In this document: positions 6,105 to 23,335 of the stretch, in pieces
Position numbering within the stretch: position 1 is the first letter of the stretch
Layout of the letters: every line of letters begins with the position of its first letter
Virus record (IMG/VR): IMGVR_UViG_3300014050_000143
Span: 1 to 23,452 of that record
DNA: 23,452 bases
Origin: a virus
Strand: one strand, 5' to 3'
Notes under the pieces: generated by a model
Told to the model about the DNA's origin: nothing
Databases searched by the model: none
Seen by the model: only the letters and a program-made list of their open reading frames with translations
Program-made: the position numbers and the translations under genes

Positions 6105-6152
6105 GGTGCGGTGGCAGAGTGGTCGAATGCGGCGGTTTGCTAAACTGCTGAG
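6105..6152 (+). other. 5' half of tRNA-Ser(GCU): probable attP core
   Basis: Bases 6105-6148 fold as the first half of a class II tRNA-Ser: acceptor 5' strand GGTGCGG, TG at positions 8-9, D stem GCA/TGC with loop GAGTGGTCGAA, then anticodon stem GCGGT/ACTGC with loop TTGCTAA and anticodon GCT. After about 6152 the T arm and acceptor 3' strand are absent. It lies between terL and the integrase gene, so it is most simply the phage attachment site, with strand exchange in the anticodon arm or just after it. It is not a complete tRNA gene. Confidence 0.8.
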
Positions 6153-6262: not shown

Positions 6263-6284
6263 CAGACATTAATTGTCAGTAATG
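6256..6284 (+). promoter_or_regulatory. Candidate int promoter with repeat copy 2
   Basis: TTGACG, a 17-nt spacer and GTAATG end 12 nt before the ATG at 6297. The spacer contains the second copy of the 21-bp repeat (6263-6283), here with GACA-N5-TGTC intact, a plausible operator for a dimeric repressor. Confidence 0.4.
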
Positions 6285-6296
6285 TTCACTTTCAGT

Positions 6297-7556
6297 ATGA
6301 AAAAAGAATTTAAGCCGATCGAGATCCAAGACGGGTTTGCGAACGTGAAAATCTACCAATGCGTCAACAATAAGAATTATTTAACGTACATGGTGACCTG
6401 GTGGGCTGAGGGCAAAAGACAGCGCCGGGCTATTGCGGATTTGTCCGAGGCCAAGCGCGAAGCTCGCCGGATTGCCCGAGACCTCGCTGACGGCCGCGCC
6501 TCGATGGTGGCCGTGTCCAATAAAGAGCTGGCTTACTTTAGGGACCTCGAAAAGAAAATGGGAGGCACCCCGCTAAGCGAAGCGGTTAACCTGTGGTTGC
6601 AAACAAGCGAAAACAAACTGCCTAAAATAACGGTTAGCGAGATTGTTAAGGAAATGCTCAACCTTAAGTTGAACGACACCTTTATAGAAAAACGTCAAAA
6701 ACAAACTTTGCAGGTTCGTTGGGGTAAATTTGAAAAAGCTTTTGGGGGTCGAGTTATCTCCACAATCAAAGCTAAAGAACTGGATGCCTTTTTAGCCAAC
6801 CCGGAGTGGCAACCTCGCACAAGACAGCACTATCGTGGTGCCGTCAGCATGATTTTTGATTACGCCAAAAGAAAAGACTATCTGGAACCGGACAAAGATC
6901 ATCAGGCAGAAAAGACCGAAGTCATTCGGGTTAACGATGCAAAGTTGGAAAGCTGGTCCGTCGAGGACATGGCATTAATCCTTAAGCATGCCACAAAAAG
7001 GACAATACCGTGGATTGTTTTGGGCGCGTTTGCAGGAATTAGATCCTCTGAAATTGAAAGAATGAATTGGGAAGATATTGATTGGTCTAGCAATTTAATT
7101 CTGGTTAAAGGAAAACTTGTAGGTGGCTCCAAATCAAGGGCTAACAACGATAGAGCCATAGCAATGACCGCTAATTTAAAAGCTTGGCTTAGCCCTTTTA
7201 GGACATATAAAGGAAATATCCTCAAAAGCCTGGGTGTTGGAGATATAAACAAAGATATCTACCATGCTTTGGGAGAGGTAATTAACAAAATTCAAAAAGA
7301 AAAACCGCTTTTTAATTGGAAACAAAACGCGAATCGTCACAGTTTTGCTACTTACTATTTAGCTATGACTGGCGACGCTTCAACTACAGCACTTGCGATG
7401 GGCAATAGCCCTACCATGTTGTTACGTAGATACAAATCCATCCAGGTGGATGGAAAAACAGTGACTCGGGGGATGGCGGAGAAGTACTTCGCAATTATGC
7501 CGGGTCAAGGAGGAGTGCATGAACAAGTCGGAGAGGAGTCACGAAAGGTCAAGTAA
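6297..7556 (+). CDS. int: Tyrosine-type site-specific integrase
   Basis: The 419-aa protein carries out strand exchange between attP and the host tRNA site. An N-terminal arm-binding-like domain (to about residue 100) and a SAM-like core-binding domain (about 105-200) precede the catalytic domain. R249 is in FAGIRSSE, a Lys is in the beta hairpin (LVKGK, about 270), box II reads NANR (344-347), box III reads MGNSP and the nucleophile is Y379 in LLRRYKS. Both usual His residues (HxxR and GH) are Asn here, a variant I associate with integrases of PVC-group bacteria. I chose ATG 6297; ATG 6282 and TTG 6273 are alternatives. There is no Shine-Dalgarno. It overlaps the next gene by 38 nt. Confidence 0.93.
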   Translation: MKKEFKPIEIQDGFANVKIYQCVNNKNYLTYMVTWWAEGKRQRRAIADLSEAKREARRIARDLADGRASMVAVSNKELAYFRDLEKKMGGTPLSEAVNLWLQTSENKLPKITVSEIVKEMLNLKLNDTFIEKRQKQTLQVRWGKFEKAFGGRVISTIKAKELDAFLANPEWQPRTRQHYRGAVSMIFDYAKRKDYLEPDKDHQAEKTEVIRVNDAKLESWSVEDMALILKHATKRTIPWIVLGAFAGIRSSEIERMNWEDIDWSSNLILVKGKLVGGSKSRANNDRAIAMTANLKAWLSPFRTYKGNILKSLGVGDINKDIYHALGEVINKIQKEKPLFNWKQNANRHSFATYYLAMTGDASTTALAMGNSPTMLLRRYKSIQVDGKTVTRGMAEKYFAIMPGQGGVHEQVGEESRKVK

Positions 7557-19496: not shown

Positions 19497-19510
19497 AATA
19501 ATTCAATTTA

Positions 19511-19786
19511 GGGTAACCTAAGTTACCCCAAAATACAGGTTACCAGGGCAAGTTACCCCAAAATAACCGCTGTACTTCAATCAGTTACGACAAAAAGGGT
19601 AACTGGGTAACTTGTTTTTCGACTTTGGGGTTCACAAGCCCGGCACACGCAGTGCAAATATTTCACGCCAGATTATATACATTAATATATTATAGTTACC
19701 CTAGTTACCCTAGTTACCCTAAATATTATAACCACAAATACTTAAAATGGGTAACTTTGAAATTTCTGGGGTAACTTAGGTTACCC
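19511..19786. repeat. GTTACCC heptamer (iteron-like) cluster, candidate origin
   Basis: Eleven perfect GTTACCC or GGGTAAC heptamers, plus a partial one (GGTTACC, 19538-19544): 19511, 19522, 19552, 19597, 19605, 19695, 19704, 19713, 19749, 19769 and 19780 (start positions). Three are exact 9-bp tandem units TAGTTACCC (19693-19719). Pairs facing each other form GGGTAAC-N4-GTTACCC (19511-19528) and the like (19769-19786). A very AT-rich stretch (about 19665-19695) sits inside. No gene fits most of this area. Iterons beside an AT-rich element are typical of phage and plasmid origins or partition sites; which protein binds is not shown. Confidence 0.7.
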
Positions 19787-19887
19787 TAAAACCGCCTGAT
19801 ACCGTCATGGGTAGTCCTCTTGGCTAGGACCCAGATAACAGCCACCGCTGCCAGAAAAATAAGCTTACCTAGGATTTGCCGTATCAT
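19786..19887 (-). CDS. Possible single-pass membrane peptide (33 aa)
   Basis: ATG 19887 to TAG 19786: MIRQILGKLIFLAAVAVIWV, then LAKRTTHDGIRRF. One clean hydrophobic helix flanked by basic residues gives a positive-inside pattern. It overlaps the 42-aa frame upstream and ends at the last heptamer. Such small membrane peptides are often phage lysis or envelope factors. There is no clear ribosome site, so the gene call is tentative. Confidence 0.4.
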   Translation of the reverse strand: MIRQILGKLIFLAAVAVIWVLAKRTTHDGIRRF

Positions 19888-20974: not shown

Positions 20975-21235
20975 TCAGCGCAAAGTTTGCAGCAACGCAT
21001 TTGCCTGCGCACGTGTCATGCGAGTCTCGTCTACATGCACGTCGTAACCACCGTACCATTTTTCTTGTCCCCAAACCGAAGCCTTCGCTTCACCAACTTT
21101 GACTCCACCGGAGTAGAGGTCATAACCGCCCGGCCATTTCTGGGTTCCCCACACGGAAGGACGAATGGCAAAGTCCTCCGCCTGGGCGCCTGCTGCAAAG
21201 GCCACCACGCATAATGCAGCGATTAGTTTCTTCAT
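20975..21235 (-). CDS. Secreted two-repeat protein, possible lysogenic-conversion gene
   Basis: 86 aa from ATG 21235. Residues 1-19 are a typical Sec signal peptide (MKKLIAALCVVAFAAGAQA, cleavage after AQA). The mature part holds two copies of a 25-residue unit: SVWGTQKWPGGYDLYSGGVK and SVWGQEKWYGGYDVHVDE, sharing SVWG-x-x-KW-x-GGYD. An exported, single-gene unit on its own promoter at the edge of operons fits a moron acting in the periplasm or outside. The function of the repeat is unknown. A longer TTG start is possible. Confidence 0.75.
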   Translation of the reverse strand: MKKLIAALCVVAFAAGAQAEDFAIRPSVWGTQKWPGGYDLYSGGVKVGEAKASVWGQEKWYGGYDVHVDETRMTRAQANALLQTLR

Positions 21236-21243
21236 TACCCGAA

Positions 21244-21272
21244 ACAATATAATGACTGCCTCCAGTCAGCAA
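21244..21272 (-). promoter_or_regulatory. Promoter with operator-like repeat, secreted-protein gene
   Basis: Minus-strand TTGCTG, 17 nt and TATTGT end 8 nt before ATG 21235. The spacer and -35 contain the perfect inverted repeat TGACTG-N4-CAGTCA (21253-21268). Confidence 0.5.
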
Positions 21273-21325
21273 TAAAAATAAATTAAATTTTTATTATATG
21301 TGTATTTATAGAACTTAAACTTCAA

Positions 21326-21347
21326 GGGGGGTGGGTGGGTGTGGGGG
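21326..21347 (+). other. Strong G-quadruplex-forming tract
   Basis: Plus-strand runs G6-T-G3-T-G3-TGT-G5 give a parallel quadruplex with loops of 1, 1 and 3 nt. It is in the 230-nt gap between the divergent secreted-protein gene and the 106-aa gene, between AT-rich DNA (about 21272-21312) and a GGGG...CCCC element at 21364-21380. Confidence 0.7.
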
Positions 21348-21368
21348 TAGTCGCCCAACATCAAGGGG

Positions 21369-21398
21369 TTACACCGCCCCGCAGCCTATTTGTATTAT
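21369..21398 (+). promoter_or_regulatory. Candidate promoter of the 106-aa gene and RNA region
   Basis: TTACAC, 18 nt and TATTAT. The predicted start near 21405 gives a 60-nt leader with a ribosome site before ATG 21467, unlike the leaderless-type promoters elsewhere. It could also transcribe the hairpin-rich region downstream. Confidence 0.35.
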
Positions 21399-21466
21399 TA
21401 GCAGAGAGAGAAGGGAACCGGATGGATCCCTGTATCTCAAAACCCCTGCTATAGATAGGAGTCACC

Positions 21467-21787
21467 ATGGCATATGATACTCAAACCGTAGCAGCTCAAC
21501 CCTCAACGACTTACGCACCGAAAAACGATGCGTTGTACTTGACGGTGAAACGGAGCAAGTTCGGCCACCTCGGCACGATCAACCCCAACGCGAACAACGG
21601 CGAACAGGCCGCTGCCTTCGCCGCCCTGGGCAAGATCTTGCTCGCTGGCAAGAGCTTGGACATCAGCGTGCGTCCCGCGAAGGACGATGCGGAGAATCTC
21701 ACCCTGCGCTTCTCGGTGAGTTCGTTCGTTCCGCAGCAGCGGACGTCGTTGGCAGAGCGGCTCGTCACCGCTCACCTCAATAGCTAA
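21467..21787 (+). CDS. Unknown protein upstream of the RNA region (106 aa)
   Basis: ATG 21467 has a well-placed AGGAG. Residues 1-20 are polar, followed by ALYLTVKRSKFGHLGTINPN, a helix EQAAAFAALGKILLAGKSL, a strand SLDISVRPAK and a final strand LTLRFSVSSFV. The alternation suggests a small alpha/beta domain, no membrane segment, few acidic residues. Unknown function. A 7-bp hairpin CCTCAAT/ATTGAGG spans its stop codon, where the structured region begins. Confidence 0.7.
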   Translation: MAYDTQTVAAQPSTTYAPKNDALYLTVKRSKFGHLGTINPNANNGEQAAAFAALGKILLAGKSLDISVRPAKDDAENLTLRFSVSSFVPQQRTSLAERLVTAHLNS

Positions 21788-21798
21788 TTGAGGCTCCG

Positions 21799-21836
21799 GA
21801 CCTCGTGGGGACTGCAAACCCACGGGGAACGGTTTA
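21799..21836 (+). repeat. Hairpin module copy 1 (GACCTCGTGGG ... GAACGGTTTA)
   Basis: CGTGGG/CCCACG stem (21804-21809 with 21819-21824), nine-base loop containing TGCAAA, and the conserved tail GAACGGTTTA (21827-21836). Confidence 0.65.
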
Positions 21837-22079
21837 CGAATCAGTGGACGGTGAACGGTGTAGGACCATAAGACTAAAATCAGTGACCTACGTCCCTCAA
21901 CTAGGATTGCAAGCTGACGTTGGGGATTGCACGTAGATAGATTGAGCCTTACAGAAATCTACTCCCTGCAATTGATGGATGTAAGCATATATGGCATCAG
22001 GCAGCTCAGTTAAATGAGCTGTAAAGGTTTGTGGAGTCGACTCCACAGTCGTCCCTGCCTACATCGTTCACCCTTCATT

Positions 22080-22116
22080 GACCTCGTGGGACAGCAAAAC
22101 CACGATGAACGGTTTA
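22080..22116 (+). repeat. Hairpin module copy 2
   Basis: Same leading GACCTCGTGGG (22080-22090), stem TCGTGG/CCACGA, loop with GCAAAA, and tail GAACGGTTTA (22107-22116). An outer CGTTCA/TGAACG helix (22065-22070 with 22106-22111) is an alternative to the 15-bp closing helix, so the two are mutually exclusive. Confidence 0.65.
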
Positions 22117-22226
22117 TAATGAACTTCATGATTTTCCTGGAGTTTGCGGATGCTGTTTTCGCAGATCCGCGAATCGTGAATACGACACGATTCCCAGGTA
22201 GCCGGACTCGTAGGCCACGAGTCGCT

Positions 22227-22269
22227 CCGTGGGGATTGCAATCCTGCAGTCCTCACGGGGAACGGTTAA
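22227..22269 (+). repeat. Hairpin module copy 3
   Basis: CCGTGGGGA pairs with TCCTCACGG (9 bp, one G-U) and the loop makes TGCA/TGCA; tail GAACGGTTAA (22260-22269). GGATTGCAA in the loop also occurs at 21904-21912. Confidence 0.6.
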
Positions 22270-22281
22270 TCAAACCGCAAG

Positions 22282-22743
22282 CTACACAGGAATAACTGAA
22301 TTACTGGCAGTTACTGACACGGAATCTTGTGGAAGTTGTTGTAAAACCGCGATGTTCACTGTTTGAGTTTTCGAGCCTTCCGACAAGCCAAAAGCTGTAG
22401 TAGCCACACGATTAACCTTTTCCAACGCAGTGAAGTGTTCTTCAACTTCGCTCCGGGTAGCTGGGGCTTCTGCCTCCAGCGCATTCATTCCACCTTCAAC
22501 CTGTTTCTTTAACCTCGACAGATAAGATTGGGCTTCGCCCACCATTTCATTCGTTGCAACACGATGCGCTTCTGCCACTCGTTGCAGAGATTGCTGCTTG
22601 TAAGTTGCAAGTTTGAACCGCGCTACATGACTGCGGATCGACGCTGCATTCACATTAAACTTCGTAGCTAATATCTGAGGCGGAATACCTTTCGCGTATT
22701 CCGCTTCGATCGGACCCCAGTCGATCACTGAACGCTTTCTCAT
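22282..22743 (-). CDS. Probable terminase small subunit / HTH DNA-binding protein
   Basis: 153 aa. Residues of about 8-45 (WGPIEAEYAKGIPPQILATK, then FNVNAASIRSHVARFK) form a helix-turn-helix of the kind that starts many phage small terminases. Then come charged helices (about 50-125) and a beta end with VNIAVLQQL, where TerS proteins carry their portal-contacting strand. TerS recognises the packaging site on DNA and hands it to TerL. It is unlinked to terL in this window but on the same strand. A regulator is the alternative, supported by palindromes in its own promoter. There is no Shine-Dalgarno; the promoter ends 12 nt before ATG. Confidence 0.6.
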   Translation of the reverse strand: MRKRSVIDWGPIEAEYAKGIPPQILATKFNVNAASIRSHVARFKLATYKQQSLQRVAEAHRVATNEMVGEAQSYLSRLKKQVEGGMNALEAEAPATRSEVEEHFTALEKVNRVATTAFGLSEGSKTQTVNIAVLQQLPQDSVSVTASNSVIPV

Positions 22744-22745
22744 GC

Positions 22746-22776
22746 CGTTGCAACGATTGTACCAGACGTTGCAACT
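22746..22776. promoter_or_regulatory. Two CGTTGCAACG operators flanking the -10
   Basis: CGTTGCAACG (22746-22755), a perfect 10-bp palindrome, lies immediately next to the -10 on the coding side, and GTTGCAAC (22768-22775) lies in the spacer. Their centres are 21 bp apart, two turns of the helix, which favours cooperative binding on one face. Confidence 0.55.
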
Positions 22777-22784
22777 CTTTGCAA
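22756..22784 (-). promoter_or_regulatory. Promoter of TerS-like gene
   Basis: Minus-strand TTGCAA, exactly 17 nt and TACAAT, close to the sigma-70 consensus -10. The start codon follows after 12 nt, so the leader is about 5 nt. Confidence 0.65.
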
Positions 22785-22845
22785 GTTACTGACAGTCATC
22801 AGTCATTTTAACCACGATCGATAACCCATAACCAAGGAGACAACC
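22785..22845 (+). promoter_or_regulatory. Regulatory gap before the right-hand plus genes
   Basis: Contains ACTGACAGT followed by ATCAGTCA (22789-22804) and then GATCGATAACC/CATAACC. It separates the divergent TerS-like gene from the 66-aa gene. A clear -10 for the plus genes is not seen. Confidence 0.3.
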
Positions 22846-23046
22846 ATGGACGACATCATGACCACAATGCTCTGCCCTTACGCCGTAGGACAGATCATCG
22901 ATAACGACAACGGCACCCAGGAGATCGTCAGCCATATCTCCAAGGTCGACGACGAGTTCATCGTTCAGACCAGGGTCCTGGCTGGGTTTAGTGGCTACTA
23001 CAAGGTGCAGGCTGACGGCTCCTTGAAGAACGGGTTGACCCGATGA
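22846..23046 (+). CDS. Unknown small protein (66 aa)
   Basis: ATG 22846 has AAGGAGA at good spacing. The protein is acidic at the start (MDDIMTTMLCPYAVGQIIDN) and then beta-rich (GTQEIVSHISKVDDEFIVQT), ending in a turn-rich strand, compatible with a small beta barrel. It is read divergently from the TerS-like gene and overlaps the next start (ATGACC). No family recognised. Confidence 0.7.
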   Translation: MDDIMTTMLCPYAVGQIIDNDNGTQEIVSHISKVDDEFIVQTRVLAGFSGYYKVQADGSLKNGLTR

Positions 23047-23270: not shown

Positions 23271-23303
23271 ATGCAACCGCGGTACTTTGCCTCCGCGTTG
23301 CAT
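23271..23303 (+). other. Long hairpin between small genes
   Basis: ATGCAAC-C-GCGG pairs with CCGCGTTGCAT over 11 bp with one bulged C and a 10-nt loop. No U-tract follows, so it is more likely a processing or stability element than a rho-independent terminator. Confidence 0.4.
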
Positions 23304-23335
23304 CCTGACGGTAAGGCAATCCAAGAGGTACATAT

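Follow-up and report, generated by a model that had tools for sequence, protein, structure and literature searches.

A hairpin-rich spacer between converging phage genes, possibly a conserved 3′-end double hairpin expanded by MITE-like inserts

The 494-nt spacer at positions 21788-22281 of IMG/VR record IMGVR_UViG_3300014050_000143 (the window, analyzed over its 23,452 bases) comes from an uncultured temperate phage and is composite: hairpin-rich modules that are present or absent among close relatives, with conserved ends and variable interiors, lie beside a small hairpin, hp1, and both hp1 and the long helix of the larger module (P1) have changed in ways that preserve pairing. The reading that we favor, tentatively and with slightly less than even confidence, is that a conserved 3′-end double hairpin has been expanded by MITE-like inserts. 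The core would be hp1 plus a second small hairpin (hairpin 2), located where two convergent genes have their 3′ ends. It most likely works at the RNA level, at the ends of transcripts, as a hairpin for ending, processing, or binding, and the hp1 loop, GACUGCAAA, would be recognized by some partner. Two hairpin-rich modules would have been inserted beside it. One of them, module A, would be a miniature element with long terminal inverted repeats that arrived with an extra hp1 copy, and a relative of it, module B, would have inserted at another intergenic site in sister phages. We infer transcription of the region, mobility of the modules, and a function and partner for hp1. Docking of small inverted-repeat inserts at the double hairpin is the simplest account and would explain the presence and absence of modules, the repetition of hp1, the conserved ends, and the variable interiors. 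The first-pass annotation had interpreted the region as a single structured RNA of ~500 nt; our analysis supports selection on the hairpins and a plus-strand bias, and does not support the single RNA. The features discussed below are as follows.

21467-21787, plus strand: gene for a 106-aa protein, upstream of the hairpin region, function unassigned
21788-22281: the 494-nt spacer between the two converging genes
21801-21827, plus strand: hp1 copy 1, stem CCTCGTGGG/CCCACGGGG, loop GACTGCAAA; the ancestral element
21828-21836, plus strand: AACGGTTTA, conserved 3′ flank of hp1
21841-21864, plus strand: 5′ arm of P1 of module A, pairing with 22058-22081
21865-22057, plus strand: interior of module A, 193 nt (113 nt in G002), several hairpins, mostly unalignable between relatives
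22002-22021, plus strand: hairpin CAGCTC/GAGCTG, the sole interior hairpin common to the window and G002/G003, with a G-C to G-U change
22030-22047, no strand assigned: 18-bp perfect palindrome, not in G002/G003
22058-22081, plus strand: 3′ arm of P1 of module A, closing the long helix
22084-22116, plus strand: hp1 copy 2 with AACGGTTTA, stem TCGTGG/CCACGA, loop GACAGCAAAA; direct repeat D2
22117-22224, plus strand: module 2, four back-to-back hairpins, window only
22225-22281, plus strand: hp1 copy 3 (extended stem) and terminal hairpin CGGTT..AACCG; direct repeats D1, D3, and D4, and MFE fold
22282-22743, minus strand: convergent gene, 153 aa, helix-turn-helix and long-helix protein

No convincing gene was found in 21788-22281, which bears out its description as gene-free; two mechanical open reading frames, 22014-22295 (plus) and 22068-22256 (minus), cover sequence missing from relatives. 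Five IMG/VR records contain close relatives of the flanking genes in the same convergent pair (L001, L002, L003, L004, and L011), and in these the 106-aa protein is kept at about 87-94% amino acid identity. It is 42% identical in the outgroup L031 and had no Pfam or PHROG match. A transcript of this gene would carry the hairpins as its 3′ UTR. The product of the convergent gene is possibly a small terminase, as one homologue gave a weak PHROG match to terminase small subunit (E 0.016); its AlphaFold model, of low confidence (pLDDT 67), had no PDB match below E 1. The window contains no tRNA or tmRNA gene.

Spacer length among close relatives is about 60-70, 265, or 490 nt. In L001, L004, and L011, and in the more distant outgroup contigs L031, L038, and L056, the ~60-70-nt gap consists of a single hp1 (loop GACTGCAAA), GAACGGTT, and the second small hairpin; in these one-copy relatives AACGGTTTA forms the 5′ arm of hairpin 2 (CGGTT..AAACCG). 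L002 and L003 have one module after hp1 and then a second hp1 copy with loop GACAGTAAAA; in the window the count rises to two modules and three copies of hp1. Between the window and G002, the genes on either side are 84-90% identical. Phage and plasmid records contained no DNA or protein relatives of the locus, and a search for prophages in 399 genomes from a single phylum, the one to which a Microbulbifer genome belongs, gave no flanking gene beyond two weak partial matches.

We found hp1 in all eight relative contigs, with the loop GACUGCAAA invariant in the first copies. Stem position 3 varies among U-A, U-G, and C-G, L056 has deleted one pair on both sides, and a 31-nt segment, CGTGGGGACTGCAAACCCACGGGGAACGGTT, is identical in L004 and L031 even though the 106-aa proteins of their two groups are only 42% identical. 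This pattern would be the expected trace of selection on a folded hairpin with a recognized loop, in counts too small for significance: formal covariation among hp1 copies was not significant (column shuffling, 67/500) because the rows are too alike. Pattern searches of viral contigs returned 27 and 25 matches, those outside this phage group all being chance or coding, and the one match in bacterial genomes lies inside a coding sequence of a Microbulbifer contig. Integron attC sites carry the boxes RYYYAAC and GTTRRRY at their hairpin ends. Read directly, the ends of hp1 (GGGGAACGGTTTA) do not fit these boxes, and we rejected an attC site.

P1 of module A has 24 positions, comprising 20 Watson-Crick pairs, three G-U pairs, and one C-C (23 standard pairs). 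The 15-bp closing helix annotated earlier (21850-21864 with 22058-22072) is real and forms the inner part of this longer helix; the annotated 18-bp perfect palindrome, TGTGGAGTCGACTCCACA, is likewise present. Two pairs of P1 differ between the window and G002/G003, and both remain paired (G-C to A-U, two-sided; G-U to A-U, one-sided). The L002/L003 module is about 165 nt, with P1 arms of 27 nt at G002 53337-53363 and 53477-53503, and hp1 copy 2 comes together with module A in G002/G003. The outer helix and hp1 are conserved, the module interiors hardly: only about 31 nt of the module A interior align between the window and G002 (77%), and module A interiors alone fold little better than chance (z -1.5 to -1.7; window interior -1.7). 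Because the interiors fold weakly alone, the fold energy comes from P1 and the added short hairpins rather than from a conserved multi-branched core. Under the MITE-like reading, P1 probably represents the paired terminal repeats of a small mobile element, and these repeats, together with the added hairpins, would largely account for the strong fold. Since whole hp1 copies flank module A, recombination at hp1 is a possible route of entry, by which the module may have arrived as a module-plus-hp1 unit. G002 and G003, being nearly identical, count as one version, so the collections searched offer two independent versions of module A, too few for a covariation test to have power, and one of module B.

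Module B, which is strongly folded, emerged from a genome comparison for insertions and lies at another intergenic site, about 1 kb to the right.

G005 26813-27014 and G001 953-1136 (L001 about 6410-6615): module B, about 200 nt, in the gap between two same-direction genes

It is missing from the window, G002, G003, and G004. Its 31-nt arms pair in a perfect 23-bp core helix, and its folding z is -9.0 for the plus strand and -8.2 for the minus strand (interior alone, -2.4); Rfam gave no match. The arms of modules A and B share TGAA(A/G)GGTGAAC at 11 of 12 positions (P about 0.005 by shuffling), and the interiors are unrelated. In L001, GCAGTTTAAC and GCAGTTAC flank module B, whereas L003 shows one GCAGTTTAAC at this place; the pair resembles an imperfect 8-10-nt target duplication. 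A match to the module B end in G011 was discarded, as it lies in what reads as coding sequence. In the window, a conserved intergenic hairpin at 23272-23304 (TGCAACCGCGG..CCGCGTTGCA) adjoins the position that module B occupies in sister phages.

How closely do the modules resemble MITEs? They are short and non-coding with terminal inverted repeats (24-nt arms in A and 31-nt arms in B; no conserved open reading frame), and they occupy two different, polymorphic sites, their kinship resting on the 12-nt motif. Their ends matched no autonomous insertion sequence in phage or plasmid records, and no transposase associated with modules A or B was identified. MITE class membership is not established, because there is no parental element and no clean target duplication. 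Three further points speak against the MITE-like reading: a pure DNA element does not predict the plus-strand G-U bias described below; the arm similarity of A and B covers only 12 nt, with few independent module versions; and the flanks of module A are ~35-nt hp1 copies, not a short clean target duplication. We also considered that the modules are a new family of phage-borne mobile elements with a functional transcribed RNA, in which the closing helix frames swappable folded interiors beside hp1 at fixed intergenic docking sites, and we regard this as quite improbable.

By analogy, the nearest mechanistic parallels would be prokaryotic MITEs and the mycobacteriophage element MPME1. Like prokaryotic MITEs (PMC10969869), the modules are short, non-coding, and intergenic, have terminal inverted repeats (24-31 nt), are present or absent among close relatives, and can fold into long hairpins; they differ in lacking a known parental insertion sequence, a known transposase, and a demonstrated short clean target duplication, and in occurring at low copy number in a phage lineage. 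MPME1 and MPME2 are also ultra-small, occupy different sites in closely related phages, and were found by presence and absence (PMC3029335). At 439 bp, and with 6 bp added upon insertion, MPME1 (PMC3029335) differs from the modules here, which are 165-250 bp with long terminal repeats, no obvious gene, and a structured interior. According to two reports (PMC2800124, PMC5910586), mitochondrial double-hairpin and repetitive hairpin-forming elements similarly multiply as hairpin units in intergenic DNA, with stems more conserved than array loops, but they belong to another genetic compartment, and here the first hairpin is ancestral and its loop invariant. If the modules are mobile, they would be among the smallest known mobile elements, carried by an uncultured phage lineage.

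To quantify folding, we used dinucleotide shuffles as controls. The plus-strand RNA of the 494 nt has an MFE of -206.7 kcal/mol, far more stable than its shuffles (-151.7 ± 6.4 kcal/mol; z -8.6; 0/100). The minus-strand RNA gave z -5.3, and with DNA parameters both strands gave z -7.2. The plus-minus energy difference exceeds that of any of 300 shuffles (z -2.9), and G-U pairs make up 17 of the 168 pairs of the plus-strand MFE structure. Divided into 150-nt blocks, the region ranks with the most structured parts of the window on the plus strand, without being unique. The first-pass annotation was therefore correct that the hairpins are real and that G-U pairs favor the plus strand, and it overstated both the extent and the exclusiveness of the fold: 336 of 494 nt (68%) are paired, not nearly every base, and the minus strand and both DNA strands also fold well. 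The three-way domain that it placed at 22136-22198 appears in the DNA fold; the RNA fold has two hairpins there without the short closing stem. Selection for the hairpins, with a plus-strand bias, is supported by the pair-preserving changes in hp1 and the long helix together with the G-U asymmetry. The G-U bias suggests that the hairpins, once present, are read as RNA, presumably as the 3′ UTR belonging to the 106-aa gene.

A dedicated structured noncoding RNA read from the plus strand, either stand-alone or derived from the 3′ UTR, with P1 as closing stem and the hp1 repeats as functional loops, would be consistent with the strong folds (z -8.6 in the window and -7.3 in the G002 version), the plus-strand excess of stability (also p 0.005 for the G002 interior), the use of G-U instead of A-C in P1 and hp1, and the one two-sided change in each. 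We nevertheless consider it unlikely. Of the five close relatives, three lack the modules, as does the outgroup. Neither length nor interior is conserved between genomes that are 84-90% identical, module 2 has no strand preference (z -3.9 plus, -4.1 minus), and no promoter-like site was found on the plus strand at or upstream of the region. Nor did Rfam models, including GOLLD, ROOL, and HEARO, match the whole window at gathering score or, in a permissive search, 21200-22850 and the G002 version. The idea of one large RNA thus gives way to a composite region of variable length, whose modules are gained and lost and whose unconserved interiors fold near chance. No Rfam model for a group I or II intron, a known ribozyme, or a riboswitch matched, and we rejected these; a scan of neighboring proteins for a retron found no Pfam reverse transcriptase family. 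The phage RNAs GOLLD and ROOL often lie close to tRNA islands, and GOLLD members often exceed 800 nt (PMC12286853). The region shares with them the character of a hairpin-rich noncoding stretch of phage DNA, but it is much shorter, its interior is not conserved, it matched no Rfam family, and the window lacks tRNA genes. If the modules are mobile, a signal like that of a giant ornate RNA can come from nested terminal repeats, which calls for caution in RNA discovery by folding energy alone.

The location between converging stop codons in all relatives would also suit a purely bidirectional terminator or insulator, with extra hairpins accumulating because they block read-through or protect RNA 3′ ends, and the distant L012, L014, L049, and L051 do have ordinary hairpin-plus-T-tract terminators near this gene. 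We think this doubtful, however: no T-tract follows hp1 or hairpin 2, none of the hairpins within 21788-22281 scores as terminator-like, a terminator does not need an invariant loop, and module B lies between two same-direction genes. If, as the double-hairpin reading proposes, the hp1 loop binds a partner, it would provide an RNA-protein or RNA-RNA contact, simple and testable, at the ends of phage transcripts.

Finally, the hairpins or repeats might act in DNA as a site for packaging, replication, or recombination. As DNA, the two strands fold equally well, the neighboring helix-turn-helix protein weakly resembles a small terminase, and TTGCAA motifs cluster around its gene at 22282-22743. 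We judge such a site very unlikely, because pairing-preserving stem changes and one-strand G-U pairs suit RNA better than a duplex site, and because the origin and the attachment site probably lie elsewhere. A replication origin at 21788-22281 was rejected in favor of an iteron cluster 2 kb to the left, at 19507-19790, which is the probable origin: it has a 24-bp perfect inverted repeat around GGGTAACT/AGTTACCC iterons, of which three stand in tandem, as well as an AT-rich stretch, features that are kept in G001-G005 and partly in G011. We likewise rejected attP at 21788-22281, because a tRNA-Ser-like 5′ segment (anticodon-loop TTTGCTAAA) lies directly upstream of the integrase gene (6273-7556), making about 6105-6150 the probable attP. 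A Microbulbifer genome matches this segment at 81%, and 399 genomes of its phylum contain no near-identical attachment site.

Several other features of this phage group were observed. TTGCAA/GTTGCAAC motifs cluster at 22553-22784, in and upstream of the convergent gene (five of the window's 12 TTGCAA copies, with two more inside 21788-22281); they may be operator or packaging repeats. A G-quadruplex-like G-rich run at 21326-21349 (GGGGGGTGGGTGGGTGTGGGGG), upstream of the 106-aa gene, follows an AT-rich stretch; it is kept in L001, L011, L031, and L056, and the distant L014 has a similar run. Position about 18630 is a hypervariable insertion point, holding 0.8 kb in G004, 1.4 kb in G005, 4.9 kb in G002, and nothing in the window. 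The minus strand of G005 also carries an open reading frame of 4167 codons (41940-54443), an unusual length in a phage of 76 kb.
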